From: Candidatus Nitrosocosmicus sp.
Lineage (GTDB): Archaea; Thermoproteota; Nitrososphaeria; Nitrososphaerales; Nitrososphaeraceae
Direction of reading: 5' to 3'
Assembly (NCBI GenBank): GCA_025934495.1
Contig: JAICXY010000032.1
Coordinates: 1-33,277, forward strand
Length of the DNA: 33,277 bases
Both the position numbers and the translations under genes were made by a program. This document shows, piece after piece, positions 10,886 through 28,460 of this stretch; within the stretch, counting starts at the first letter, position 1, and every line of letters begins with the position of its first letter. The notes under the pieces were generated by a model. It saw nothing but the letters and a program-made list of their open reading frames with translations. It had not been told where the DNA came from and did no database searches.

Positions 10886-12751
10886 TTAGCCATATTGAAA
10901 TATTATTCCTTTTTCTCCTCTAGGATGTTTCCAATCTGTTTCTTTTGCACATGTTCCACATTCTATGCATCCTTCGTGTTGAAGCATTACTCGCTCATTC
11001 TCAATACTGTAACATTTAGTGGGACATAGAGTAACCATTTTTTTCATAAAATCACTTTGTGAATTTAAAACTTTGATGTGAGATAATGAATCGTCATTAT
11101 AATCTAGTTTTGCAATTCTCTCAGCAATTGTAGGGATGGTGATAGAATAACTTTTTTGTAAATCCCTGCCTGCTCTTTCTGCAATCTCGACAGGAACATC
11201 GGTATAGGTGTTGTTTGATTCAAGAATTGGTAAGAGTCTTTTATATCCTAATGTATTTGCAAATCCTATAGATATATTTCTCAAGGTATTACTTGACATC
11301 AATTTAAAAATGGTTCCGTATCTATGTCCAACTATATCTTTAGGTACTTGTTTTGTGCAATCAAGAAAAGTTTTAAGATAGTTTTTGTCAATTTCATTCA
11401 TATCTCGAGTATAAGGGCTTTCTTCTACCAATTTACTATAGCGTTCACCCAATCTATCAAAGTTATTCTGATCTATCGATTTTGAAATAGATTCTGCAGC
11501 TCTTACTGCATCATCAATACCTACATTAATACCTTCTATACGAGGACCTACGAATATGCCCCGACCAGCCGCATCACCGATAAATAATATATTTTTATAA
11601 TACGGTTTCTTCATTCTACCGCGCTTTCCATCGGGAACTAATTTAGTACTATACTCTAATTCAACATAATTTGTTTCAAATCCTATATCATATTTTGAAA
11701 CTAATTCGTTATGTATTGAATCGATTTTATTTTTTATATCATCCTTTGTTTTGTAAAGACCACTTGCTAAAAGATCAGAAATCCTTGATGAAGAATAATA
11801 TGCTTGATGTAGATCTTTCCAACTTTTGATTAATTTATTGGATTTAAAGCGTGCTCTGAGTTCTTCCTCTTTTGAAAGATTTTTATAACTATCTTTGCTT
11901 TTTGGAACTTCATCTTTTATTAATTCCATTACAAATGGATTTGATAGTAATGCATTAACAAGTTCATTTGGCTCTACAGGATTTTCGATTAGGGAATCAT
12001 AGTGATAAACCGCGCCAACTGAAAGAGTATCTCTATTTGTATAAAGAAATCCTCCACCAATATGGTTTAGTGTTATGTCGCCTGCAAAAAGATGGGCGGC
12101 CCCCTCATTTTCTGATATTTCAAATCTTTCTTCTATCAATCCCTCAGGCAATTTTACTACTACCTTTACTCCCTGATAGAGTTCAGACGATGTAAATTTA
12201 CTTCGAGCACCTGTTATCTGTGCTATTTCGGAATTAACTCCATCTGCAGCAATAACTGCTTTTACTTGAAATGGCTCAAGCTCATCGGTTTCTATAATAA
12301 TTGTATTTTCATCTTTCCAGATTATTGATTTAACATGGACTCCCAACACTATTCCGCCACCGAGATTTTCTGCACTTTGCAAAGCCTCTTTTGCAAACCA
12401 TGTTAGTAATTTATTGAGTAAAACGGTATAGCCAAAGTTTGATTGATAATTATGGGTGGGGGTAATATCTAGAGAAAATACTTTGTCTTTTGACGTAGCA
12501 TGAAGAATGTATTTTGTTATCTGCCTTTCTACCGGTGCATCCTTTAAGAAATTATCAAAAATATTTTCAACATTGTATACCTTTCCTACCGCAGGATTTT
12601 TAGAGTATAGTATACCGCCAGATACATTTTTGGTCCCTATTTTCTTTCCGCCCTCTATGAGAATTGCTTGTTTTCCAAGATTTGATAAATGCTTAAGTGC
12701 GGCAAGGCCTGCTGAGCCTCCGCCAATTATCGCTACATCAAACTTTTCCAT
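10886..12751 (-). CDS. fixCX: ETF:quinone oxidoreductase with fused ferredoxin domain (FixC-FixX fusion)
   Basis: A 621-residue flavoprotein. The N-terminal FAD-binding Rossmann motif is IIGGGSAGLAAL (residues 8-19). 'NVSGGILYSKNP' and 'VIAADGVNSEIA' are typical of the FixC/geranylgeranyl reductase superfamily, and 'ILFIGDAAGRGIFVGPRIEGIN' gives the second FAD contact. The C-terminus carries a 4Fe-4S FixX-like domain: C576, C580, then C595xxC598xxC601. It accepts electrons from the EtfAB dimer and passes them to quinone at the membrane. FixC and FixX are separate genes in many bacteria; here they are one chain, as in mitochondrial-type ETF-QO. The ATG shares one base with the stop of the EtfA gene (TAATG), so the three genes form one operon. 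The 3' end faces dead IS copy D. Confidence 0.9.
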   Translation of the reverse strand: MEKFDVAIIGGGSAGLAALKHLSNLGKQAILIEGGKKIGTKNVSGGILYSKNPAVGKVYNVENIFDNFLKDAPVERQITKYILHATSKDKVFSLDITPTHNYQSNFGYTVLLNKLLTWFAKEALQSAENLGGGIVLGVHVKSIIWKDENTIIIETDELEPFQVKAVIAADGVNSEIAQITGARSKFTSSELYQGVKVVVKLPEGLIEERFEISENEGAAHLFAGDITLNHIGGGFLYTNRDTLSVGAVYHYDSLIENPVEPNELVNALLSNPFVMELIKDEVPKSKDSYKNLSKEEELRARFKSNKLIKSWKDLHQAYYSSSRISDLLASGLYKTKDDIKNKIDSIHNELVSKYDIGFETNYVELEYSTKLVPDGKRGRMKKPYYKNILFIGDAAGRGIFVGPRIEGINVGIDDAVRAAESISKSIDQNNFDRLGERYSKLVEESPYTRDMNEIDKNYLKTFLDCTKQVPKDIVGHRYGTIFKLMSSNTLRNISIGFANTLGYKRLLPILESNNTYTDVPVEIAERAGRDLQKSYSITIPTIAERIAKLDYNDDSLSHIKVLNSQSDFMKKMVTLCPTKCYSIENERVMLQHEGCIECGTCAKETDWKHPRGEKGIIFQYG

Positions 12752-14082
12752 TATTGTTCTATTCCTTGAGGTATTTGCAATTTATCTTTGTGTTTTTTTA
12801 TTTCATTAATCAAAAGCGGTAGCACCTCTTCAATTTTTCCTTTGATTAATATATCTGATTCATCTATTATGGGTGCTTGAATATCTTGATTTATAGAAAT
12901 TACAAATTCTGATTCTTTCATTCCAGCAATATGTTGTACGGCGCCACTTATTCCTAAAGCAAAATATAACAAAGGATTTACCTTTCTACCACTAGTGCCT
13001 ATAACTCGATCAGGGATCATATATGTTGAGGTTAGATTTTCGCTTACGGGATATGGCTTCTTAGAAATAGGTAATGATACTCCTATTTCTGCATCTAATT
13101 CTTTCGCAAGATTTTCTATCAACTTTATGTTCTGTTCAGGAGATTCTTTGATTCCTCTTCCAAAGCTAACTATTGTTTTTTTATTGTTAAAATCAACTTT
13201 ACTTTGAACTATTCTTCTATTGATTATTTTTATTTTAAGGTCTTCTTGAGATATATTTGGATCAAAATCTATTATTTTTTCTTCTCTAGTTGTATCTCGT
13301 TCTATTCGAGAAAAAACGCCTGGAATTATGCTACAGGCTTGTGGATGAAATTTTTTTTTATTGTCGGGATTAAGATTGTCCAAACAAAGTATGGTAGTCC
13401 AAAGAAAACCTGAAAAGTCTGGCCTATACATTTCAAGAGTCTTTTCATATACGATGGGCTTTCCTTTTGTTTTATGCTCGTGTCTTATCTCTAAATCATT
13501 TATTACTAGCTTATTTATATCGGATGCAAGTCCAGATTCTAATTCTGCCATGACAGTAGAAGACAAATGCCTTCCTGTATCATCTGCAGAGAAAAACATG
13601 TACCTAGGTTTGCTAAAAATAGGATTTAAGGACGCTGGCGTGGTGGTGGCGGTAGAGACAGGATGGATGGAAGAAGTAATTTTTTCCGCACAAGTTCTAT
13701 CGGTTACAATTTGGCTTATTATTTTTGTATAAAGAAGGTTGCGGTTATATCGAAGTTCTGGATGATCTGCACAGATCACAATATCTGCACCATAATAAAT
13801 TAACTCCTTGCATAGGTGTCGGATATTATGTCCAAGTATAATTGCGACTACCTTTTCTTCTGGTTTGTATCTTTTATTAAAATCATCTATTAGCCTTCTT
13901 GCTTCTCCTAGCATTTCAAAACTTACTGGCAATATTGTGCCTTCTTCTTGTTCTATTACAATGTATAAATGTCTGTAGTTCTCTTCTATTTCTTTTTCAT
14001 TCTCTTTTCTAGTATCATCTATAAAAGTCTCTTGATTTTCTTTTATTTTTGTTTGTGAAATAGAAGATAATGGCGATGTCAT
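12751..14082 (-). CDS. etfA: electron transfer flavoprotein alpha subunit
   Basis: A 443-residue EtfA/FixB homologue, longer than the usual 310-350. Residues 1-36 are a charged extension, and a 'SIHPVSTATTTPASL' linker interrupts the N-terminal domain. The N-terminal domain begins at 'HLYIVIEQEEGTILP'. The C-terminal FAD domain is well conserved from residue 359: 'VIGTSGRKVNPLLYFALG', 'ISGAVQHIAGMKES', 'ISINQDIQAPII' and 'KIEEVLPLL'. It forms the heterodimer with EtfB that carries electrons from a dehydrogenase to the ETF-QO. Its start overlaps the EtfB stop by four bases (ATGA), a sign of translational coupling. The extension may contact the bifurcating flavin or a dedicated partner; this is inference. 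Confidence 0.9.
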   Translation of the reverse strand: MTSPLSSISQTKIKENQETFIDDTRKENEKEIEENYRHLYIVIEQEEGTILPVSFEMLGEARRLIDDFNKRYKPEEKVVAIILGHNIRHLCKELIYYGADIVICADHPELRYNRNLLYTKIISQIVTDRTCAEKITSSIHPVSTATTTPASLNPIFSKPRYMFFSADDTGRHLSSTVMAELESGLASDINKLVINDLEIRHEHKTKGKPIVYEKTLEMYRPDFSGFLWTTILCLDNLNPDNKKKFHPQACSIIPGVFSRIERDTTREEKIIDFDPNISQEDLKIKIINRRIVQSKVDFNNKKTIVSFGRGIKESPEQNIKLIENLAKELDAEIGVSLPISKKPYPVSENLTSTYMIPDRVIGTSGRKVNPLLYFALGISGAVQHIAGMKESEFVISINQDIQAPIIDESDILIKGKIEEVLPLLINEIKKHKDKLQIPQGIEQ

Positions 14083-14972
14083 TTTATGATTGTCCCTCCC
14101 AAAGTATCATATATTCTAGTTACAACCTGTCCTATATTCCCTTGGCTAGAGCCATCAATGACATCTGCTTTTCTATTTGCCTTTGCCCTTGGTATTTTTT
14201 CAACTTTATAAACTATTGTAGGTGACCCAGGTAATCCTACGGCCTTTGAATTTACTTCTAGCGATTGAGCACTAAAAACTTTAAGATATTCTTTATATTG
14301 GGATGATCGACCTATTGCCTCCTTTTGATGTCTTGCTAGTTTAAGCCTTTGAGATATAGTATTAAAAAAAGGGATAAAAGAGGGATCCAGTGTCATAAAA
14401 ATTGGTAATGGTGCCTCAATCTCTTCGATTATATCATGATATCCATAACTTTTAATTAATCGCTGTACTTTTACATAACCTCTTTTAATATCTACGTCAT
14501 AATCAATAACATTACCAATGAAAGGATAACCAAGTTTCCATGCAGTTTGTGGTCCTGTTTGTCCTGTTTCGCCATCAGAAGCCCTGTGGCCTGCGAAAAC
14601 AATATCAATAGGCTGACCATTTGCCATTTTCTTTATACCTGCTTTTAGAACTTCAGCTGTAGCAAGAGTATCAGCCCCTGCAAAAATACGATCACTATAA
14701 AGATGTAGCTCATCGGCATCACAAATTAGTTGAGATTGTTGCAAAGCTGCCTCTGCTATTGGAGGGCCCATCGTAGCAACCGAAACCCGAGAACCATACT
14801 TTACTTTGGAGTATAAGGCAGCTGTTGATGCTACAGCACTATGAGGCCCTAAAATATTTTTTGTTTCAGCTCTGTTTAATGTTCCATCCGCATTATAACT
14901 TACATTTCCTTCAGAAAAATCAGGCTCAAGTTTTACTATAACTGCAGTATTAAGCGTTCCATCTGGATTCAA
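14079..14972 (-). CDS. etfB: electron transfer flavoprotein beta subunit, bifurcating-type loop
   Basis: A 297-residue EtfB/FixA homologue, first gene of the ETF operon. 'NADGTLNRAETKNILGPHSAVA' replaces the canonical VNPFD...E..LRL region. Residues 128-141 read GHRASDGETGQTGP, closer to the DGDT-Q-VGP type seen in FAD-binding, electron-bifurcating EtfB than to the DDD-Q type of AMP-binding EtfB (established for FixAB and EtfAB-Bcd; the match here is my reading). The only available in-frame start after an upstream TGA is TTG (14972) or the adjacent CTG; a TATA box TTTATAAAT sits 22-30 bases ahead, supporting a leaderless TTG start. An electron donor could be NADH or the neighbouring dehydrogenase. 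Confidence 0.88.
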   Translation of the reverse strand: MNPDGTLNTAVIVKLEPDFSEGNVSYNADGTLNRAETKNILGPHSAVASTAALYSKVKYGSRVSVATMGPPIAEAALQQSQLICDADELHLYSDRIFAGADTLATAEVLKAGIKKMANGQPIDIVFAGHRASDGETGQTGPQTAWKLGYPFIGNVIDYDVDIKRGYVKVQRLIKSYGYHDIIEEIEAPLPIFMTLDPSFIPFFNTISQRLKLARHQKEAIGRSSQYKEYLKVFSAQSLEVNSKAVGLPGSPTIVYKVEKIPRAKANRKADVIDGSSQGNIGQVVTRIYDTLGGTIIK

Positions 14973-15519: not shown

Positions 15520-15870
15520 CCTTTCTTCTTTTATTGGAATATGCCAAAATATATTTTCATCTGCCTTATAGACAAACCAATGAAGGAATTGCACAAGGAC
15601 TTCTATGGAAAGTACCTTCGATCTTTGATTACAGTACAATAAGCAGAAGAATAAACAGGGTGTATATTAATGTAAAAGATGATGGTAGCAAATAATTCAA
15701 AGACAATCATATCCTAATTGCAATAGACAATACAGAAATCATGTTTACAAATAGAGGCTAATGAATGATAGGCAAATGGCTACTTTAAAAGAAAGACCAT
15801 GTTAAAAGATCAAAACATCAAACGGATAAAATATTTTATGGAAATGTTGAAATTGGTTTCATTGCCTTTT
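15520..15870 (+). pseudogene. IS5-type transposase remnant
   Basis: Interrupted plus-strand translation gives 'LPYRQTNEGIAQGLL' and 'FDYSTISRRINRVYI', then 'HILIAIDNTEIMFTNRG' with stops, followed by 'IGKWLL'. This order (LPYRQTEG..., DY..I.RR, then A-I-D-x-T-x-I...NRG) is that of IS5-group archaeal transposases, where the Asp of 'IDNT' is the first catalytic residue. At least three stops and loss of both element ends show an old fragment. Confidence 0.6.
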
Positions 15871-16774: not shown

Positions 16775-18058
16775 TCAATAAGCTTTGTACTCTTTTCCAA
16801 GTAACAATGACGCAATTTTGAGCTCAAGTATTTCATTAGCACCTTCGTATATTGTTGTAGCTCGACTGTCTAAAAAATGCCTTGCAACTCTGCTAGTTTT
16901 TCTATATCCAAAAGATCCAAAAATTTGAATGGATCTATTAGATACATCAAAAGCATTATTGGTAGCATTAAGTTTTGCCATCGAGGCAAATAAATCCACC
17001 TCATTTTTTAATTTTTGATATTCTTTATTTTCTTTTGATATCTTATATATCCAATCGCTATATTCATTTTTTAAACTTTCTATATAATCATGTAATTTTT
17101 GCCTCAAAAGCGCAGTTTTATATACCAACCATTTCGATGATTCGATAGCTACTTTTATTTGTACAATATGTTGTTGAATTAGCTGTTTTTTTGCTAAAAG
17201 AGAATTATGCTGAACTCTTTCTTTTGAATGGTTGATAGATTCTGTCAAACAATCCTCCATCACCCCTATAGATCCCGCAGCAACACTTAACCTTCCATCA
17301 ATTAATGCAGTATATGCTATATGAAGACCATCCCCTCTTAAACCGATCAAGTTTTTTTTTGGAATTTTATAATTTTTAAAATTTAACTGTGCATTTTTTA
17401 CAGTCAGTAACCCAATTTTGTCTTTTATTTCGACTATCTCAAAATCAGGAAAATTTTTTTTATCTATAATGAAGGCAGATATTTTCCCATTTAGGTTTGA
17501 ATCGACGTTACCTTTTTCTTTTGCATATATTGTAAAAACATCAGCAAATGTTCCATTGCCTATCCAGTGTTTTATGCCGTTTAACAGAAAATAATCATCT
17601 TTTTCTTCTATCGTAGATGTTAAAGAAGATGGATCGCTACCAGCCAATGGTTCTGATAAAGCAAAAGCCATAATGGATTCGCCTTTAGTAGTAAATGGTA
17701 AAAATGATTTTTTTTGTTCTATACTAGCCCAATTTTGTAATATCAATTGACCTATGGAAATATGGGCAGAAAAAAAAGTTCTAAGAGATCCTCCCTCCAT
17801 GCCTATTTTTTGCAAGGCCATAACATAAGTTAGAAAATCATAACCAAGACCACCATATTGTTTAGAAATCGGGCAACCCAACATTCCTATTTTTCCAAAT
17901 TCAGGTATAATATTTTCATTAAATCGTTCATGCAAATAGCAATCTGTTTCAATATTTCTGATATTTTTACAAGCATCGTTTATCTTGCTTATATAGTTAG
18001 TTTGTTCTTTAGAAATTTCAAATTGCATATCTGAAAGATTTATGAATTTGTTACTCAC
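16775..18058 (-). CDS. acyl-CoA dehydrogenase family flavoprotein
   Basis: A 427-residue ACAD-fold enzyme; family members oxidise acyl-CoA (or related) substrates with FAD and hand electrons to ETF. Signature 1 is present as 'FALSEPLAGSDPSSLTS' followed by 'LNGIKHWIGNGTFADVF'. The glutamate of 'TIYEGANEI' (E405) is in the position of the catalytic base of most family members, so it is probably active. 'QIFGSFGYRKTSRVARHFLDSR' is also typical. An extra charged stretch of about 25 residues (around 'HDYIESLKNEYSDWIYKISK') interrupts the C-terminal helical bundle, making the protein longer than the usual 380-400. The GTG at 18058 is favoured by a TATTATAC box about 25 bases ahead; ATG 18028 ('MQFEISKEQ') matches the usual N-terminus and is a real alternative. 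No acyl-CoA ligase, hydratase or thiolase lies in the window. Confidence 0.85.
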   Translation of the reverse strand: MSNKFINLSDMQFEISKEQTNYISKINDACKNIRNIETDCYLHERFNENIIPEFGKIGMLGCPISKQYGGLGYDFLTYVMALQKIGMEGGSLRTFFSAHISIGQLILQNWASIEQKKSFLPFTTKGESIMAFALSEPLAGSDPSSLTSTIEEKDDYFLLNGIKHWIGNGTFADVFTIYAKEKGNVDSNLNGKISAFIIDKKNFPDFEIVEIKDKIGLLTVKNAQLNFKNYKIPKKNLIGLRGDGLHIAYTALIDGRLSVAAGSIGVMEDCLTESINHSKERVQHNSLLAKKQLIQQHIVQIKVAIESSKWLVYKTALLRQKLHDYIESLKNEYSDWIYKISKENKEYQKLKNEVDLFASMAKLNATNNAFDVSNRSIQIFGSFGYRKTSRVARHFLDSRATTIYEGANEILELKIASLLLGKEYKAY

Positions 18059-18444: not shown

Positions 18445-19953
18445 ATGCAGGCAGAAAAAATATATAAAAATTCCGCATTAGATATAACCAATGAATTAGA
18501 AAAATCTGGAATAAAATGGATAAGACTAAATTTTTGTGATCCATTAGGGTTTCTTCATCAAATAACAGTTAACAGTAATGAAATTACAGAAAATGCATTT
18601 AAGCAAGGGATACCCCGGTTGGATGGCAGTTCCATAAGAGGATTCAAAGAGATCTACGAGTCAGATATGCTGCTTAAACCAGATCCGTCTACTTTTGCCA
18701 TCTTACCTGATTATTTTGATAAAAATCATCATCACGGAAGAGGGTATACATATCCTTCAATGGCTGCACGTATGTTTGTTGATATTTATGAAGGATTTGG
18801 AGGAAAACGCTATTCCCGAGATAGTCGATATATGGCACAAAAAGCCGAAGAGGTTTTAAAAAATAAAGGTTTTGAGAAGAGTTACTGGGGACCTGAATTA
18901 GAATTCTTTGTTTTTAACAAAATTAATCTTCTTCCCAACCCAATGTCTTCAGTAAATTGTTCTGGGGGATCAGGATACTCTATCGAATCTGCTGAAGCAC
19001 CATGGAATTCTTCCAATGAAAGTGGGTATACTATTCCATTTAAAGGGGGATACTTTCCAGCACCTCCAGCAGATAGTTTAACCGATTTAAGAGATGAAGT
19101 ATCAGAAACACTGCAAGAGTTTTTTGGAATAAGGGTGGAGGCCCATCATCATGAGGTTGCAACAGCAGGACAATGTGAGATTCAGATGAGATATGATGAT
19201 CTTGTACATGTAGCAGATAATGTAATTACATACAAGAAGACAGTAAAAGAAGTTGCCGCAAAGCGCGAAATGATTGCAAATTTTATGCCAAAACCCATTG
19301 CGCTTGATAATGGCTCTGGTATGCATGTGAGCCAAAGCTTGTGGACAAAAAAGAAGCACGGAGAAGATATCAATGCATTCTACGATTCTTCTGATGAATA
19401 TGCAGAGTTAAGCCAGACAGCTCGTTATTACATTGGAGGGTTAATAGAACATGCTAGATCACTTTGTGCCATAACCAATCCCACAACTAATTCCTATAGA
19501 AGATTAATTCCAGGATTTGAGGCTCCAATAAATGTAGCATGGAGTAAAATGAATAGATCAGCTAGCATAAGAATCCCTGCTCATTTCAAAAACATGGAGA
19601 CGGCGAAAAGGGTAGAATATAGAACACCTGATCCTAGTTCAAACATCTATCTTGTAGAAGCCGCATTGTTATTGGCAGGGCTTGATGGAATCAACAAAAA
19701 AATTTCACCTCCAAACCATATTGATAAAGACATATACAAACTTACAGAACAAGAAAAAAGAGAATGTGGAATTAAAAAATTACCTACTTCACTAATGGAA
19801 GCCATTGAATCTATGGAATCAGATAATGAATTTTTGAAACCGGCGTTTACAAATGACTTTCTAGAGATGTACTGCCAGATTAAAAAAGACGAATATACAA
19901 CAGTAGCAGCAATTCCATCGCCAAGAGAATTTTATATGTATGGGAATATATAA
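18445..19953 (+). CDS. glnA: glutamine synthetase family protein (GlnA or gamma-glutamylamide ligase)
   Basis: A 502-residue type I GS fold: ATP-dependent ligation of an amine (ammonia in GlnA) to the gamma-carboxyl of glutamate. Motifs in order: 'LDGSSIRGF' (59-67, with the Asp that binds ammonium in GlnA), 'YWGPELEFFVF' (147-157, metal Glu), 'KGGYFPAPPAD' (200-210), 'EAHHHEVATAGQCEI' (232-246), 'DNGSGMHVSQSLW' (288-300), 'RLIPGFEAP' (353-361, flap Glu) and 'NRSASIRIP' (370-378). All catalytic positions look intact. No adenylylation-site motif of the bacterial beta type is present. The closest pattern is archaeal GlnA, so plain glutamine synthesis is the default. Its position as first gene of a split glutamate-synthase-like cluster makes a gamma-glutamylmethylamide synthetase role possible. 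Confidence 0.88.
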   Translation: MQAEKIYKNSALDITNELEKSGIKWIRLNFCDPLGFLHQITVNSNEITENAFKQGIPRLDGSSIRGFKEIYESDMLLKPDPSTFAILPDYFDKNHHHGRGYTYPSMAARMFVDIYEGFGGKRYSRDSRYMAQKAEEVLKNKGFEKSYWGPELEFFVFNKINLLPNPMSSVNCSGGSGYSIESAEAPWNSSNESGYTIPFKGGYFPAPPADSLTDLRDEVSETLQEFFGIRVEAHHHEVATAGQCEIQMRYDDLVHVADNVITYKKTVKEVAAKREMIANFMPKPIALDNGSGMHVSQSLWTKKKHGEDINAFYDSSDEYAELSQTARYYIGGLIEHARSLCAITNPTTNSYRRLIPGFEAPINVAWSKMNRSASIRIPAHFKNMETAKRVEYRTPDPSSNIYLVEAALLLAGLDGINKKISPPNHIDKDIYKLTEQEKRECGIKKLPTSLMEAIESMESDNEFLKPAFTNDFLEMYCQIKKDEYTTVAAIPSPREFYMYGNI

Positions 19954-21412
19954 TATAGATATGTCCTACAATAAAGATATACTTGCCATTAAAAGAAATC
20001 TTCTAAAAGAATCTTCTTCTTCCAATCTTATAGATTACTATGATCAATCAAAGATAATTCTCGATGCAAGGAAAGCATTTGATGGACTAATTCCATATTC
20101 AGGATTAGGCGCTAATTCTACTAATGATTACTTTTCATCGATAGATCTAATTGGTGGAAAACTTAAAACAGATGAAGATTATAGTGATGTAGATCTATCT
20201 TTAGAAATTGGAGGACGTTATTCTAATAATATTATAACAACAGATGTACCATTTTTTATTTCTGGGATGAGCTATGGTTCGTTAAAGCTTCCTGCAAAAA
20301 TAGCATTGCATATTGCATTAAACAAACTTGCTGAAGATGGAATAAAAGTAATAATGAATACTGGTGAAGGAGGTGCACTGCCATGGGAAATTTATGGTAT
20401 GGATATTGAAAATAGTAGCATAATTGAATATACTAACCGATTACTTAAGGAGCACAATTTAGACAATATAAATAGGGAACAACTTTTTCAAAGACACTAT
20501 CCTCTGGTAGTTCAATATGCATCAGGAAGATTTTGGAAAGATCCTAATTACCTGTTGAAAGCAGATGCAATAGAAATAAAGATAGGTCAGGGTGCAAAAA
20601 TAGGACATGGAGGGCTGTTACCTGGCTCAAAGGTAACAGAGCTTGTTGCTGAAAATCGTGGAATACCTCCGTATAGGTCAGCTCACTCACCTTCAAGACA
20701 TCTAGATATTTTGGGGCCTGAAGATTTAGTTGCCAAGATCCTTGAATTAAGAGAAGTTACTGATTGGAATATACCCATAATCGTAAAGGTAGGTGCTGCA
20801 AGAGCGTATGATGATATTAAGATAATACTTAAATCTTATGCAGATTCTGCCTCCATAGATGGCTATGTGGGAGGGACTGGTGCGGCTCCTTGGGAGATTC
20901 GCGATATCATTGGAATAAATACAATACCTTCGATAAAAATGGGAAAAGATGCAATAAATGATTATTATTCTCATAAAGAGATAAATGAGTTTAAATTACT
21001 TGCTCATGGCGGTATTTGGGATTCAAAACGAATTGCAAAATGCATTGCTCTTGGAGCAAATGGAGTGGGCATAGGCACAGGTTTTCTTATATCTATGGGG
21101 TGTACCCTAATTCAAGACTGTTATACAAATACCTGTCCTGCAGGGCTAACTGGATCATATGAAAAGCTTGATATAGAAAACAGTGCAAAGAGAATAATTA
21201 ATTATATTAAGGGGACAATGGTTGAACTGCAAAATATTGTAGGTTCATTAGGTAAAAAAAGAATTAAAGACCTTAACAAAGATGATCTTTTTGCCACGGA
21301 TGAACTATCTAATATGGTATCAGGATTATCATCGAACAATAAGAATTACTTTAAACAGATTAAGGATAAAATTAGACAGATAGATGTTCATGGAATGGAA
21401 TTGAATGTCTAG
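19940..21412 (+). CDS. glutamate synthase FMN/3Fe-4S core subunit (GltB-central/MgsC-like)
   Basis: A 490-residue TIM-barrel flavoprotein corresponding to the FMN domain of glutamate synthase. Visible: 'FFISGMSYGSL' (105-115), 'MNTGEGGALPWE' (139-150), 'IEIKIGQGAKIGHGGLLPG' (211-229), 'SPSRHLDILGPEDL' (250-263), 'GYVGGTGAAPWE' (308-319) and the 3Fe-4S cysteines C388-x5-C394-x4-C399-P. It lacks the ferredoxin-like insertion of methanogen GltB and so resembles stand-alone MgsC of N-methylglutamate synthase. The core should reduce 2-oxoglutarate imine to glutamate (or, with methylamine, N-methylglutamate). ATG 19940 overlaps the GS gene by 14 bases; ATG 19961 (seven bases after the GS stop) is equally possible. 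Confidence 0.85.
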   Translation: MGIYNIDMSYNKDILAIKRNLLKESSSSNLIDYYDQSKIILDARKAFDGLIPYSGLGANSTNDYFSSIDLIGGKLKTDEDYSDVDLSLEIGGRYSNNIITTDVPFFISGMSYGSLKLPAKIALHIALNKLAEDGIKVIMNTGEGGALPWEIYGMDIENSSIIEYTNRLLKEHNLDNINREQLFQRHYPLVVQYASGRFWKDPNYLLKADAIEIKIGQGAKIGHGGLLPGSKVTELVAENRGIPPYRSAHSPSRHLDILGPEDLVAKILELREVTDWNIPIIVKVGAARAYDDIKIILKSYADSASIDGYVGGTGAAPWEIRDIIGINTIPSIKMGKDAINDYYSHKEINEFKLLAHGGIWDSKRIAKCIALGANGVGIGTGFLISMGCTLIQDCYTNTCPAGLTGSYEKLDIENSAKRIINYIKGTMVELQNIVGSLGKKRIKDLNKDDLFATDELSNMVSGLSSNNKNYFKQIKDKIRQIDVHGMELNV

Positions 21413-21437
21413 AGAAAAAATTCTGGAGTAAAAAAAA

Positions 21438-22595
21438 TTGAATCCCAGAGATAAGTTTGTCATAAGGTCTTCGATCTTAGAATTAGCCGAAACTGGTACT
21501 CCACGCAATATTTCAATAGATGACAAATTAAGAAATGAACATAAAGAAAGAGAAATAGAAAAGACAATAAACATTTGGGATAGCATAACTGCATTAGGTG
21601 CGCAATTATCACGACCACCATATGACCCATACCGAGAGATAATAAATCTTGGAATATCTATAGGCCGAAAACAATGTCTAAATAAGGTAGTTTTATCTAT
21701 GCCACTGATAATTTATGATAATGCTATCAAGATAGAAGAAACATCTTTAGAGTCTTTACATATTGCATTAGATCGCCTTGCTATTGATAGCAATACAAAT
21801 TTAGGTCTTATTTCAGAAAATGAAATAAAGAATAGAAAATTCTCACATTTCAAACGAATAAATAAAAAATCAGCGAAAGTAGAAGATTATGATTCAGAAG
21901 GACTTGTGCTACAATACAATGACGACAAATCTTTACAATTTCTCACAGACATAAGGAGAGAATTTAATGGCCCAATACTTGTAGAAATTGATGATGATTT
22001 TCAGAAATACATTGGACCGCTATTAGATACAGGAGCTGATGGGGTTATTGCTGATACTATTAAAATAACTAATAATGCAAGATACAAAGGAAAACATGCA
22101 TTAAGAGTAATACGTGATGTAAGGTACGCTATAAACCAATATTATGCAGGAAGGGAAAATGATGGTATTGTCTTAATGGTTGCAGGGGACTTTAATAACA
22201 CCGGAAGAATTGTAAAATCTGCTGCATTGGGTGCAGATATTATCGGCTACTATACCAGCTTATTAATTGCGAATGCTGCAAATCATTATGAGATTTCATC
22301 CAACATACATACAGTACCCGACAGGATTTGTAGGCACATTCTAGCTACCAAAGGAGAACTTAAAGGTGTACCGGCTGCATTAGGCTACAGTGATTTTTAT
22401 AATCTATCTCCTGCTGATTTACGTACCTCTAGTATTGAGACAAGTTTACAAGCGGATATTGCCATAGAGGGGATAGATAAAACATATCGCCAAATAATCG
22501 AAGAACTGATTGATGAATATGCCAGTGAAAAAGGTATAGAAATGAATAAGGAAAAAAAGCGGGAACTAGTTGTACAGCTATTAACGCACAGATGA
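21438..22595 (+). CDS. degenerate paralogue of the glutamate synthase FMN core (probable pseudoenzyme subunit)
   Basis: A 385-residue protein whose second half follows the same plan as the preceding gene: 'GPILVEIDDDFQKYIGPLL' with 'DTGADGVIADT' matches 'IPIIVKVGAARAYDDI...DGYVGGTG', and 'VLMVAGDFNNTGRIVKSAALGADIIG' matches 'LLAHGGIWDSKRIAKCIALGANGVG'. The glycine-rich GGTGA loop, the GQGAKxGHGG segment and all three cluster cysteines are absent, so it should not bind 3Fe-4S and probably not FMN in the normal way. The N-terminal part (residues 1-70) is not recognised. The TTG start has GGAG about 12 bases upstream. Placed inside the operon, it is best read as a structural or regulatory partner of the active subunit. 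Confidence 0.65.
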   Translation: MNPRDKFVIRSSILELAETGTPRNISIDDKLRNEHKEREIEKTINIWDSITALGAQLSRPPYDPYREIINLGISIGRKQCLNKVVLSMPLIIYDNAIKIEETSLESLHIALDRLAIDSNTNLGLISENEIKNRKFSHFKRINKKSAKVEDYDSEGLVLQYNDDKSLQFLTDIRREFNGPILVEIDDDFQKYIGPLLDTGADGVIADTIKITNNARYKGKHALRVIRDVRYAINQYYAGRENDGIVLMVAGDFNNTGRIVKSAALGADIIGYYTSLLIANAANHYEISSNIHTVPDRICRHILATKGELKGVPAALGYSDFYNLSPADLRTSSIETSLQADIAIEGIDKTYRQIIEELIDEYASEKGIEMNKEKKRELVVQLLTHR

Positions 22596-22614
22596 TAAGG
22601 AATGAAAATTACAA

Positions 22615-23496
22615 ATGTGTGGAATTTGTGGAATTATATTAAAAGATCATAATAATCCAAACTTTTCAATAGGTGCTCTGCTTTATCAGATGATGGAAAG
22701 CCAACAGGTACGAGCTCAGGATAGTGCAGGAATAGCCATTTTTAATAATATAAATAGTCATAATAATGATTTATTCTATAATCTAGCATATTTGATGGAA
22801 TCTCCTACGGAAATTGGTGAATATGATTTGATAGAGAAAAAAGTATCTACAACAATACCTTCAAATGAACAGGTACAACTAATTTCTAGATTAAGCGAAG
22901 ACAATCGGGTTTCTATAATAGGTTGTGAAAAAGAAATGAAACTGGTTAAAAATTTAGGCCTTGTAAAAGATCTTGATAAAAAATATAATATAAAATCAAT
23001 GAAAGGATCTCATGGTATTGGACATTTAAGAATAGCAACAAGCAGCAAAGTCGATCCAAGTAATGCACATCCATTTAGTACTACTGTTATGCCAGATATA
23101 GCAGTTGTACATAATGGGGAAATATCAAATTATTCAAAATTACGGAATTTACTTGAGAATAAGGGATATCCTTTCTATTCTAATTGTGATTCAGAGGTCA
23201 TAGCTGTATTTCTTGTTGATCAGTTATTAAAGCATGGAGATATACAAAGGGCACATGATGAATTTATACAAAAAGCCGACGGGCCATTTACATATATTGC
23301 CGCCACAAATCATTCGCTATCATTAATAAGAGATAAATTTGGAACCCGGAAGGGAATTGTAGGTTATAATCCTGGAAAAAATGGATATCCGGCATTTTGG
23401 GCAATGGCAACTGATTTATCTGCATTAGATATTGTGGGAGCTAATGAGTACGTGAAAGCAGCATCTCCAGGTAAGTCTATAATTTTCACAATATAA
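22615..23496 (+). CDS. class II glutamine amidotransferase subunit (GltS-/MgsA-type)
   Basis: A 293-residue N-terminal-nucleophile amidohydrolase that releases ammonia from glutamine (or an amine from a gamma-glutamylamide). The start is fixed because Cys2 of 'MCGICGI' must become the N-terminal nucleophile. Other active-site motifs are intact: 'RAQDSAGI' (33-40), 'GIGHLRIAT' (134-142), 'HNGEISNY' (166-173) and 'NCDSEV' (190-195). It is the stand-alone equivalent of the amidotransferase domain of glutamate synthase; MgsA of N-methylglutamate synthase has the same size and layout. It starts 19 bases after the preceding gene with an AAGGA motif in the gap. It is separated from the GXGXG gene by an inserted miniature element. 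Confidence 0.88.
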   Translation: MCGICGIILKDHNNPNFSIGALLYQMMESQQVRAQDSAGIAIFNNINSHNNDLFYNLAYLMESPTEIGEYDLIEKKVSTTIPSNEQVQLISRLSEDNRVSIIGCEKEMKLVKNLGLVKDLDKKYNIKSMKGSHGIGHLRIATSSKVDPSNAHPFSTTVMPDIAVVHNGEISNYSKLRNLLENKGYPFYSNCDSEVIAVFLVDQLLKHGDIQRAHDEFIQKADGPFTYIAATNHSLSLIRDKFGTRKGIVGYNPGKNGYPAFWAMATDLSALDIVGANEYVKAASPGKSIIFTI

Positions 23497-23497
23497 T

Positions 23498-23640
23498 AGA
23501 TCCCTTGCATAATTAGACGCCTATCAAAATTTTGCAGCCTATCAATTATATTGTGTAATATTTACATTTTAAATTGCTGATCAGAACAAGGTATATTCTT
23601 CATTAGAAATTTTCCTAATGATCCTAATTATGCGAGATCT
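23498..23640 (-). mobile_element. miniature inverted-repeat element, family 1, copy 2, inside the glutamate-synthase-like operon
   Basis: 143 bp that begins one base after the amidotransferase stop codon and ends 41 bases before the GXGXG start codon. The termini AGATCCCTTGCATAATTAG and CTAATTATGCGAGATCT are inverted repeats, and the whole element is the reverse complement of the copy at 8136-8279. It contains no frame. As it sits between two genes that should be cotranscribed, it may weaken, terminate or stabilise the downstream message through its hairpins. Confidence 0.8.
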
Positions 23641-23655
23641 AATAAATAAATTAAT

Positions 23656-23786
23656 AAAGGCACGGTTAAAAACAAAGGTTAATGTGTTATACGTTAGATA
23701 TCGATGAACTTCGAGCAATAGTACAAGACATTGGCTCAAAGATATCTAATCCAGATACACAGTTTGAAAGTGTTAACCGTGCCTTT
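23656..23786. repeat. 14-bp inverted repeat spanning the GXGXG gene start
   Basis: AAAGGCACGGTTAA at 23656-23669 and TTAACCGTGCCTTT at 23773-23786 are exact reverse complements. One arm lies just upstream of the start codon, the other about 90 bases into the coding sequence, so the mRNA could fold a stem enclosing the start. It may equally be a templated repair scar next to the inserted element. Confidence 0.6.
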
Positions 23787-24611
23787 GAAGAGGATTATGG
23801 TATAAGACTTCCTTATGGCTTAAAACGTGCATCAATAGAAAAATTTGGAGATGTTGCAACTTCACCACTAATAATGGAAAGAGCGATAAATTCCATCATG
23901 AAAAAAAAGATAGGAGATGGCGAAACTAAAATCATATTAAGAAATCCAAAAGCTCTTTACAGAATAGGAATACTTGGCTTTGATAATCCAATAAAATTAG
24001 ATATAATAGTGGAGGGTGATGTTGGAAATTTTTTTGGTGCATTTTGCAATTTTAATGGGACTTGGATAGTTAAGGGAAATGCGGAAAATGGATTGGCAGA
24101 TAAAGGATATAAAGGAAAAATAATTGTAGACGGATTTGCTACAGAGCTAGCATGTCAAAACAATCAAGCAACTAAATTCAGTAACGGTGTAGATGTTTTG
24201 ATTAGAAAAGGATGTATGGAAAGAGCGATGGGCCAGGCTAGAGGGGGAAGATTGATAACTTTTGGTGCAGGATACAATTCTGGCCTATATATGTCAGGAG
24301 GAATACTGCTTAATTTGGGTTTGCCTGGTGAACTGTTTGGCCCTGGAATGGTTGGTGGCATTATTTACTCGCCTGAAGGAACTACTGCAGCCGAAGGTGC
24401 AATTATTACCAAATTAACATCGAGGGATTATCAAATAATTAGAGAAACCTTGAGAATTTTTGAAAATGACTTATTAATAGAGCAATTGGATAATTTCTCT
24501 ATGGAAAATCCTATTATATCTTTAACTAATAATGTAAAAAGGAATACTCAAAAGTACAGTATACATGATTTCATTAAGATAGTACCAAATATGACAAATT
24601 CTGGTCACTAG
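23682..24611 (+). CDS. glutamate synthase GXGXG-domain subunit (GltC/MgsB-type)
   Basis: A 309-residue protein with a beta-helix GXGXG domain like the C-terminal domain of glutamate synthase. Repeated glycine turns are visible: 'VEGDVGNFFGAF', 'VKGNAENGLADKGYKG', 'IRKGCMERAMGQARGGRLITFGAGYNSGLYMSGG' in successive coils, and 'LFGPGMVGGIIY'. Residues 1-80 form a separate helical N-terminus ('RAIVQDIGSKIS', 'ASIEKFGDVATSPLIMERA') not usual in the shortest MgsB-type proteins. In the complex this domain is structural, supporting the ammonia tunnel between amidotransferase and FMN core. An AAAGGTTA motif precedes the ATG. It has no strong TATA of its own, so it probably depends on read-through of the miniature element. 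Confidence 0.82.
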   Translation: MCYTLDIDELRAIVQDIGSKISNPDTQFESVNRAFEEDYGIRLPYGLKRASIEKFGDVATSPLIMERAINSIMKKKIGDGETKIILRNPKALYRIGILGFDNPIKLDIIVEGDVGNFFGAFCNFNGTWIVKGNAENGLADKGYKGKIIVDGFATELACQNNQATKFSNGVDVLIRKGCMERAMGQARGGRLITFGAGYNSGLYMSGGILLNLGLPGELFGPGMVGGIIYSPEGTTAAEGAIITKLTSRDYQIIRETLRIFENDLLIEQLDNFSMENPIISLTNNVKRNTQKYSIHDFIKIVPNMTNSGH

Positions 24612-25321: not shown

Positions 25322-25759
25322 TTATAATATTTTGAAATCTTCTTTCACCGTAATTAAAACTATATGTGTATTGGTTCTATCGATATATGGTAACGATAGA
25401 TCGTTTTTAACAAAATCACTCAATTCCTTACGATTCCTAAATTTAACAACTATTATCATGTCTGTCAATCCTGTAATGTCATAAACCGCACAAACATTTG
25501 GAAGTTTTGAAATGTGTTTTTCAACTTCGATTATTTTATTTTTGATTGTAGTTATTTCAATCACTGCTGTCAAATCAAATCCCAACTTTACATGATCTAA
25601 TATTGCAGAATACGATTTTATCGTGTTATCCTTTTCTAATTTTGATATCCTGTTTAGTACTGTTGGTGGTGATACTCCTATTTCAAATGCTATCTTTCGA
25701 TATGAACTTCTAGCATCCGCTAACAATCTTTTTAATATCCGTATGTCTGTTTCGTCCAT
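25322..25759 (-). CDS. Lrp/AsnC family transcriptional regulator
   Basis: A 145-residue protein with the family's two parts: an N-terminal HTH (residues 1-60, 'DETDIRILKRLLADARSSYRKIAFEIGVSPPTVLNRISKLE') and a C-terminal RAM ligand-binding domain ('KLGFDLTAVIEITTI', 'VCAVYDITGLTDMIIVVKF', 'IDRTNTHIVLITVKEDF'). Such proteins sense amino acids and control nitrogen and amino-acid genes. The ATG at 25759 has a TATA box CTTTATAAA (25780-25788 reading the plus strand) 21-29 bases upstream, supporting a leaderless mRNA. It is convergent to the GS/glutamate-synthase-like cluster with about 700 bases between, making that cluster its most likely local target (inference). Confidence 0.88.
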   Translation of the reverse strand: MDETDIRILKRLLADARSSYRKIAFEIGVSPPTVLNRISKLEKDNTIKSYSAILDHVKLGFDLTAVIEITTIKNKIIEVEKHISKLPNVCAVYDITGLTDMIIVVKFRNRKELSDFVKNDLSLPYIDRTNTHIVLITVKEDFKIL

Positions 25760-26099: not shown

Positions 26100-27118
26100 C
26101 CCGAGAATCATTTGAAAAGATTTACAATACGAATAAGATGTAAAAACAAAGGAAAGATGCTCCTTGTTCTCAATATAGTTTATCAATACAAGATAACCGC
26201 TCAGGTAGTCAGAGACCTTCTTCATCAAAGTAAAGCTTGGGCTTCAGACTGGTTAAAAAGATATGATGTATAGATTAAAACCTAGACCTAAAAGCGGTAG
26301 ACCATCCAAACTATCAGAAGAAAAGAGATAGAGTATCAGATTAAGAAAGAACTAATAGAAAGCAACAGTCATGGTTAGAGAACCACAAAACAGGTGGAAG
26401 AAGAGTTAATCGTAAAGAAAAGCGTAATGAAATATCCATTTATTCATACACATATACCGTCGTATCCTCCGTAAATGAGTTTTCAAACAAAAGAAGATAC
26501 CAAGAAAAGTACATGTTAATACTGCATCTTAAGAGGAAAAAGATAATTTCAAAAAAGGTTACAGAACAGATACTTGTGGATAAGCAGCTACAACAACAAC
26601 AAAATGGATAGAAAAGGCTTTACCATAGTATCTATGTAGATGAATCATTCCTCTTTTATGATTCTCTTGTAAGACACGTTTGGGTTGATGAGAATAAAAG
26701 ATCTGTTGTTAGAATAACAGGCTCGCACCAACATTCTTGTATTTTTGGAGACGTAGGCATAGAGAATAAGAAGATGCAACAATAAGACAGTATGATATTT
26801 TCAACGGCGGTGAGATACATTCCTTGTTGATTATCTAACTAATACATGCTAAATTTCCTAAATGCTATCTTTTTATGGACAAAGCATCATCTCCTCATTA
26901 TAAATTAAAGAAGGTAATCTGATATTTTGAAGAAAACAAAGATACTCTTATACCGGTATATATCTTCCAACTACCGCATCACCAGAGTTCATGGTAATGG
27001 AAGAGATAGGGGATATGTTATAGCCAAGCGTGATCTATTAGTACTAAAGTATTATTCATCCTTTACAGATTTAAAGAATAATATATTTTGGTATTTCAAT
27101 AAAAATATTCCATCTTGA
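26100..27118 (+). pseudogene. IS630-type transposase pseudogene
   Basis: A nearly full-length but shattered IS630-family transposase. In order: an N-terminal helix-turn-helix part with 'YQYKITAQVVRDLLHQSKAW' and 'SDWLKRYD', the linker 'LKPRPKSGRPSKLSEE', then the DDE domain with 'IYVDESFLFYDSLVRHVWVDE' (first catalytic Asp and adjacent Glu), 'RSVVRITGSHQHSCIFGDVG', 'KCYLFMDKASSPHYK' (second Asp) and 'YRYI...TTASPEFMV', followed by 'KRDLLVLKYYSSFTDLKNNI'. At least six stops or frameshifts interrupt it, so it is inactive. Element ends were not identified. Confidence 0.75.
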
Positions 27119-27761: not shown

Positions 27762-28460
27762 ATGACTTTAGAATTACGATGGTTTTTTCAGGATAAAGTT
27801 CCTGAAGAAATTAATAGGTGGTTTAAAAAAGAATTTAAAAAAAACGAAGGAAATAGTACAGAAGTAATCGATTCCTATCAAGATATATATCTTTTTAATC
27901 CAGAAGTTACCTATTCAAGTATAAAATTCAGAAATGACACTTTTGTTATTAAATGGCGTAAAAACACATTTCCCATAAAACTGAATTTAAAAAATATAGA
28001 CATGGTAGGGAATGTAGAAGATTGGATTTGCTGGAATCTTGAAGAGCTTAACGCATCAAAAGAAATTCAACTTTATATAGATAAAAACAATAAACATCCG
28101 TGGATAAAATTAAATAAAAAAAGGCAAAAAATCCTTTATAAAATTTCAAATAATCGAAAAGAATTTTTGGTATTAGAGGAAGATATCTCTAAGGCTGATT
28201 GTTCCATAGAATTATCCACTATAATGCTTGATAAAAACAAAGATATATCTTGGTGGACAATAGCAATAGAATTATTTAAAAAAACTAACAATAATAATAA
28301 CAATAATGACAAGCATGAATCCACATATGAAGAAAAACAAGTATTTGAGAAAATATCTAAAATATTCCTTAAAAATTATCCTCATAATGACTTGATTGCA
28401 ATAAGATCCTATGGCTATCCACAATTATTTTCATTATATGAAAATTTAATAAAATTGTAA
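27762..28460 (+). CDS. conserved-looking hypothetical protein, 232 aa
   Basis: A soluble, charged protein starting 'MTLELRWFFQDKVPEEINRWF'. The first 75 residues have alternating strands ('STEVIDSYQDIYLFNPEVTYSSIKFR', 'FVIKWRKNTFPIKL'), which loosely recall the E-x-E-x-R/K strand layout of CYTH-type tunnel proteins, but the motif is not clear and I do not assign it. A poly-Asn run (seven N, residues about 182-188) marks a simple-sequence linker. No membrane segment or signal peptide. A TTATAATC box about 21 bases before the ATG suggests a leaderless transcript. Function unknown. Confidence 0.65.
   Translation: MTLELRWFFQDKVPEEINRWFKKEFKKNEGNSTEVIDSYQDIYLFNPEVTYSSIKFRNDTFVIKWRKNTFPIKLNLKNIDMVGNVEDWICWNLEELNASKEIQLYIDKNNKHPWIKLNKKRQKILYKISNNRKEFLVLEEDISKADCSIELSTIMLDKNKDISWWTIAIELFKKTNNNNNNNDKHESTYEEKQVFEKISKIFLKNYPHNDLIAIRSYGYPQLFSLYENLIKL

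Follow-up and report, generated by a model that had tools for sequence, protein, structure and literature searches.

The closest described relatives of the gene cluster analysed here are the alpha chain of glutamate synthase (GltS, also known as GOGAT; EC 1.4.1.13/1.4.7.1), the split glutamate synthases of Thermoproteota, the archaeal GltS enzymes that have no central domain, and the MgsABC and rhizobial GlxBCD systems that accompany GmaS or GlnT. The cluster lies at 18445-24611 of a 33,277-nucleotide stretch of DNA (contig JAICXY010000032.1, hereafter the window) from Candidatus Nitrosocosmicus sp., an ammonia-oxidising archaeon of soil, and the source assembly is a draft, 95.7% complete. It consists of five open reading frames (ORFs), all on the + strand, for a glutamine synthetase (GS), a glutamate synthase core with flavin mononucleotide (FMN) and 3Fe-4S sites (core1), a degenerate paralogue of this core (core2), a class II glutamine amidotransferase and a GXGXG subunit. 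Ammonia oxidisers use ammonia for energy and also for biomass. We argue that the cluster is probably a dedicated GS-GOGAT module for ammonia assimilation, in which core2 would be a structural subunit.

Like the GltS alpha chain, the cluster has an amidotransferase with an intact cysteine, an FMN barrel with a 3Fe-4S triad and a GXGXG part, and its degenerate barrel would stand for the central domain. However, the cluster distributes these over four separate polypeptides, no GltD was found, and its core2 has diverged beyond the Pfam cut-offs. The split enzymes of Thermoproteota (four loci compared) also have a core2 homologue, either free (303-339 amino acids) or fused behind the FMN core, but their amidotransferase is fused to GXGXG and their FMN cores belong to a different clade from core1 of the ammonia oxidisers. 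The central-less archaeal GltS, with a fused GXGXG-ferredoxin-core chain (five loci), provide the FMN cores closest to core1 outside the ammonia oxidisers (43-49% identity) and share the separate amidotransferase. They differ in their ferredoxin domains, in a motif AQxSRPPIDxYRE that is found on the FMN core, and in that no core2 was found with them. Finally, in MgsABC and GlxBCD the amidotransferase, GXGXG and FMN parts are likewise individual subunits with a GS homologue beside them, but this GS is of type III, MgsC and GlxD are without the 3Fe-4S cysteines, and there is no core2.

In outline, the module is known. A 2019 paper reported a four-subunit GOGAT, described as NADPH-dependent, from N. 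arcticus and N. oleophilus (PMC6657660), and a passage of another paper claims GS-GOGAT for Nitrosarchaeum on the basis of glnA genes (PMC12097351). Why some ammonia oxidisers carry GS-GOGAT is described as unknown in a review (PMC10432482). What is new here is the reading of core2 as a fourth subunit, the missing GltD, the link with the neighbouring FixABCX genes, for which we found no report in the open-access literature searched, and the sequence evidence against a methylglutamate reading.

Glutamine synthetase and glutamate synthase subunits

The first gene of the cluster (18445-19953, +; PF00120/PF03951) scores 538 bits against the GlnA type I model TIGR00653, for which the cutoff is 429. 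At 17 of the 17 catalytic or ammonium-site residues compared, its product is identical to E. coli GlnA, and the ammonium-site residues D50, S53, Y179, E212 and E327 are all kept. By these residues and profile scores the enzyme is assigned to GlnA type I (EC 6.3.1.2) and not to the type III or GmaS kind. With two further glutamine synthetases in the genome, 49% and 43% identical to it, it appears to be a dedicated paralogue.

Core1 (19940-21412, +), whose gene shares its first 14 bp with the end of the GS gene, is the sole match to PF01645 in the genome (E 1.7e-82). It carries the loops GMSYGS, IKIGQGAK and GGTGAAP, the latter two as in GltS, with the catalytic loop encoded at 20579-20626 and the 3Fe-4S cysteines at 21101-21136. 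These cysteines form a CX5CX4C triad that E. coli GltB and archaeal GltS also have. The amidotransferase (22615-23496, +; PF13522, E 1.5e-17) has its Cys2 nucleophile encoded at 22618, and in the alignment the catalytic cysteine and the HxRxAT, HNGE and DSE motifs are intact. The GXGXG, or beta-helix, subunit (23682-24611, +; PF01493, E 3.4e-11) is kept in related loci wherever the contig extends that far. Of the features of a GltS alpha chain, the class II amidotransferase, the FMN barrel with triad and catalytic loop, and GXGXG are all encoded. Pfam and NCBIfam assign these three genes and GlnA, four of the five in the cluster; core2 (21438-22595, +, with a TTG start) matches no family in either on its own.

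The five co-directional genes had been noticed in a first-pass annotation of the window. All of the ORFs are present, and the set recurs jointly in relatives, so the arrangement is not a matter of chance. The same annotation had left the choice between GS-GOGAT and a gamma-glutamylamide or N-methylglutamate system; the GlnA residues and the core1 triad favour the former, and the amine route is not supported. The evidence for a GS-GOGAT module, all of it drawn from sequence, comprises gene content, conserved order, catalytic residues, the domain inventory and the lack of PF14691 in the genome. The module would be a high-affinity route from ammonia to glutamate and not a new amine pathway. In the proposed mechanism GlnA would convert glutamate, ammonia and ATP to glutamine. 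The four GOGAT subunits would form one complex, in which the amidotransferase frees ammonia from glutamine, the ammonia is channelled to the FMN/3Fe-4S subunit, and this subunit reductively aminates 2-oxoglutarate to glutamate, with GXGXG and core2 completing the scaffold and tunnel.

Electron supply and FixABCX

The alternative that survives best accepts a GOGAT but makes it an ordinary archaeal NADPH-dependent enzyme with a reductase encoded elsewhere, as the 2019 N. arcticus paper assumes. This is how the enzyme is annotated in the literature (PMC6657660), and some archaeal enzymes do have ferredoxin domains of their own, fused to the core. Core1, on the other hand, has no ferredoxin domain at its N-terminus, with no cysteine before residue 368. 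The GltD-type domain PF14691 gave no match in the genome (assembly 95.7% complete), while the control search was positive in 9 of 14 genomes, and neither GltD nor another reductase gene was present in the clusters examined. We therefore think an NADPH-dependent enzyme unlikely, and lean towards ferredoxin as the electron donor.

A candidate source of reduced ferredoxin adjoins the cluster, at 10886-14972, and had been overlooked in the first-pass annotation. These genes, on the - strand, encode FixA (EtfB; 14079-14972; PF01012), FixB (EtfA; 12751-14082; PF00766/PF01012) and FixC with a C-terminal FixX-like ferredoxin domain at residues ~569-621 (10886-12751; FixC and FixX models). They are homologues of the subunits of the bifurcating FixABCX/EtfABCX complexes (7koe), although in the latter FixX is not fused to FixC. 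The best solved relatives of FixA are bifurcating electron transfer flavoproteins (ETFs), and human ETF is found at just E 5.5e-4. FixB is best matched by the T. maritima EtfABCX alpha subunit (7koe, E 4e-38), and the FixC-FixX fusion matches chains C and D of the same structure. The subunits are nearer to bifurcating than to non-bifurcating ETFs, and FixC and FixX are present with them. The T. maritima complex couples NADH oxidation to the reduction of ferredoxin and menaquinone (PMC10734219). In Nitrosocosmicus, FixABCX could split the electrons of NADH by bifurcation between ferredoxin and quinone, and the ferredoxin would feed GOGAT.

The cluster adjoins FixABCX in six Nitrosocosmicus genomes, the window and five others. 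In G127, G100, G222, G209 and L051 the Fix genes are co-directional with GS and upstream of it (with other ORFs intervening in G209), and in the window they are divergent from the cluster. The GOGAT of the window, G127, G209, G100 and L051 form one clade (100/100). In the FixC tree, the FixC of the window is sister to that of genomes with Fix beside a glutamate/leucine dehydrogenase, and the others form a separate clade. With one GOGAT clade and two Fix clades, the adjacency of Fix and GOGAT arose, or was re-established, twice.

Several observations weigh against a firm coupling. FixABCX is common in the class without GOGAT, in 109 of the 300 genomes surveyed at E 1e-30 (the weaker ones are only FixC-like), and no FixC match was obtained in two GOGAT-bearing Nitrosopumilaceae. 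The link is therefore neither general nor obligatory, and we rejected FixABCX as an obligatory partner. Co-transcription can only be presumed, as GS starts ~400 bp after FixC in L029 and L030 and the window has its Fix genes in divergent orientation. Furthermore, an unlinked reductase without PF14691 may deliver NADPH electrons. That said, a partnership of FixABCX and GOGAT is plausible, and we tentatively suggest that FixABCX could be the source of reduced ferredoxin in Nitrosocosmicus. A bifurcating complex beside a GOGAT without a detected NADPH subunit provides a testable answer to the question of the electron source.

The Fix genes are also relevant to a second alternative, in which the cluster encodes a glutamine-dependent enzyme that aminates another 2-oxo acid, or a catabolic module that sends electrons from glutamate to FixABCX and the quinone pool. 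The genome already has glutamate dehydrogenase (four PF00208 matches, two of them strong), so glutamate formation by the cluster would be redundant. Fix genes lie beside a glutamate/leucine dehydrogenase in genomes G187 and G242, and in the window they have an acyl-CoA dehydrogenase gene as a neighbour. However, the core1 motifs tested agree with GltS, an ATP-consuming GlnA in the same cluster points to assimilation, and no such acyl-CoA dehydrogenase turned up at the other Fix-GOGAT loci. We regard this alternative as quite improbable, and retain ammonia assimilation by GS-GOGAT as the probable function of the cluster.

Associations of this kind were seen at several loci. In two same-genus genomes without GOGAT, Fix is followed by a gene for a Glu/Leu/Phe/Val dehydrogenase (L042 8371-14510, checked with Pfam, and L043 7655-13712, by reading of the sequence), which is a second link of Fix to glutamate metabolism. 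Other Thermoproteota have GltS-like loci with two cores (L121 6223-16596, L122 7593-16478, L124 2376-12711 and L125 36-5517). The run at L121, L122 and L124 comprises two cores fused to ferredoxin, one degenerate and one of the FMN type, together with an amidotransferase-GXGXG fusion, EtfB, EtfA and GMP synthase (guaA), with a glutamate dehydrogenase in the run at L121 and L124; L125 shows just three GltS-like genes. The L121/L122/L124 lineage is unrelated, and is a further association of ETF with GltS, possibly an ETF-linked glutamate synthase.

The methylglutamate alternative and core2

A third alternative is that GS forms gamma-glutamylmethylamide, from which MgsABC-like subunits make N-methylglutamate. 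Bacterial Mgs/Glx clusters likewise combine a GS homologue with these subunits, and the trees are not unfavourable. The core1 tree unites all ammonia oxidisers in a single clade, with full support and a long stem, inside a group shared with the central-less archaeal GltS and with Mgs/Glx; archaeal enzymes that possess a central domain stand apart, as does E. coli GltB. The amidotransferase tree resembles it, so that core1 shares a broad clade with bacterial MgsC/GlxD, and the amidotransferase one with MgsA/GlxB, rather than with E. coli GltB. The residues, however, argue for ammonia. The bacterial GmaS/GlnT enzymes deviate from GlnA by S53G, Y179A/E, N264T and E327T, none of which is found in the GS of the cluster, and against the type III model this GS scores 221 bits, below the cutoff of 469.6. 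Five plasmid-borne MgsC/GlxD-type proteins, which define this feature of the type, have an insertion and no cysteines at the position of the core1 triad, and the Mgs/Glx counterparts of the core1 loops are VVGQGAK and GGTAAT. Core2 is missing from the bacterial clusters. Genes resembling N-methylglutamate dehydrogenase are absent among the ORFs of the window; a genome-wide search with SoxD gave no control match and is hence uninformative. On these comparisons the N-methylglutamate alternative is not supported, and we consider it very improbable, whereas the GS-GOGAT module appears real and conserved.

The least familiar subunit of this module is core2. In the first-pass annotation it was a cysteine-free duplicate of the FMN subunit. 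It does contain cysteines, Cys80 and Cys298 (its homologues have 1-5 each, shortened copies counted), and what it lacks is the 3Fe-4S triad. Likewise, it is a paralogue of the FMN barrel but does not appear to work as another FMN subunit, with the GMSYGS and IKIGQGAK..GG.LPG loops missing. The FMN and 2-oxoglutarate loops of core1 have gone, and of the three core1 loops GMSYGS, IKIGQGAK and GGTGAAP and the iron-sulphur cysteines none is left. An active FMN enzyme in core2, in place of a structural subunit, is thus highly improbable, in spite of its predicted FMN-barrel fold, its best structural matches to FMN enzymes and the part of the ALGADIIGYSTS strand that it retains.

The reading we prefer makes core2 a degenerate FMN-barrel duplicate, which would stand where GltS has its central domain. 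An AlphaFold2 (AF2) model has an FMN-type barrel with a confidence (pLDDT) of 85, superseding a poor model from 11 close sequences (pLDDT 65). The best structural matches of this model in Foldseek are FMN-barrel enzymes; GltS is not among the top 50. The motif GAQLSRPPYDPYRE of core2 is encoded at 21597-21638, and the N-terminal motif of core2 also occurs on the FMN core of archaeal enzymes that have no central domain; core1 of the ammonia oxidisers has lost it. We had considered core2 a peculiarity of ammonia oxidisers, and rejected this because many glutamate synthase loci of Thermoproteota have homologues, which either follow the FMN core as free proteins (~303-353 amino acids) or are joined to its rear end. 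The Pfam family Glu_syn_central matches both of the homologues tested, one free (L109, E 1e-8) and one fused (L108, E 1.4e-20). As core2 homologues match this family and occur free or fused, the four GOGAT genes would correspond to the four domains of the GltS alpha chain. Among solved GltS structures, a joint profile of core2 and its homologues from Thermoproteota aligns best with residues 474-743 of 7mfm (E 5e-11), with the aligned motif SMG..AP...AQVT.P.ID..RE; in the glutamate synthase presented in PMC8097209 the central domain is residues 423-780. Using hhalign, ammonia-oxidiser core2 scores 119.8 bits against the archaeal central set and 58-100 against FMN-core sets, and 55.6 bits against the central domain of E. 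coli GltB compared with 27.3 against its FMN domain.

Two results run counter to this placement. Single core2 sequences of ammonia oxidisers weakly match PF01645 and PF04898 with about equal scores, below the cut-off, and the core2 tree places them beside core1 of the ammonia oxidisers (SH-aLRT 80). Core2 and the GltS central domain are not proven to be strict orthologues, since an approximately unbiased (AU) test permits a grouping of the two (p 0.297, not rejected) and the free tree has core2 beside core1. Both common descent and parallel duplication are compatible with the position of core2. The GltS central domain may stem from a duplicated FMN barrel or have an origin of its own, a question described as open (PMC8097209), on which a free, degenerate barrel subunit bears. 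A more far-reaching proposal, which we find doubtful, is that in aerobic ammonia-oxidising archaea a four-piece GOGAT is driven by ferredoxin that FixABCX reduces through electron bifurcation, tying ammonia assimilation to the quinone pool as for nitrogenase in diazotrophs, and that core2 goes back to a separate duplication of the FMN barrel that recapitulates the origin of the GltS central domain.

Distribution and neighbouring genes

Among 300 genomes of the class, counting as true core2 homologues those with E below 1e-50, core2 was found in ten besides the window. The distribution is patchy: three of the ten belong to the genus of the window, three more are divided between two further genera of its family, and four come from another family; by GTDB names the cluster occurs in Nitrosocosmicus, other Nitrososphaeraceae and Nitrosopumilaceae. 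In every relative examined, all five genes, or all that fit on a broken contig, are together, with a divergent GS gene in the Nitrosopumilaceae. A contig scan with core2 alone gave no matches; an alignment-based scan found 14 loci, all in ammonia-oxidiser lineages, using two short patterns that could miss distant relatives. With at least three Nitrososphaeraceae genera plus Nitrosopumilaceae the cluster is no one-off; it may have been acquired, but the core1 tree, with its single long-stemmed clade of ammonia oxidisers, gives no identifiable donor.

Archaeal_AmoA is present in seven of seven relatives tested and has no match in the assembly of the window, which may be a gap in the draft.

An Lrp/AsnC regulator (25322-25759, -; PF13404/PF01037) is convergent to the cluster, and such a regulator is linked to it at eight Nitrososphaeraceae loci. 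The acyl-CoA dehydrogenase gene between Fix and GS (16775-18058, -; PF00441) is part of the context only, and a homologue was not found at the cluster loci of the relatives retrieved; given this neighbour, Fix in the window might serve acyl-CoA oxidation. A 232-amino-acid protein without a Pfam match is encoded at 27762-28460 (+). Two short ORF fragments, by eye transposase remnants, flank the Fix/GOGAT region at 15534-15695 (+) and 26112-26273 (+), and may mark the rearrangement that made Fix divergent.

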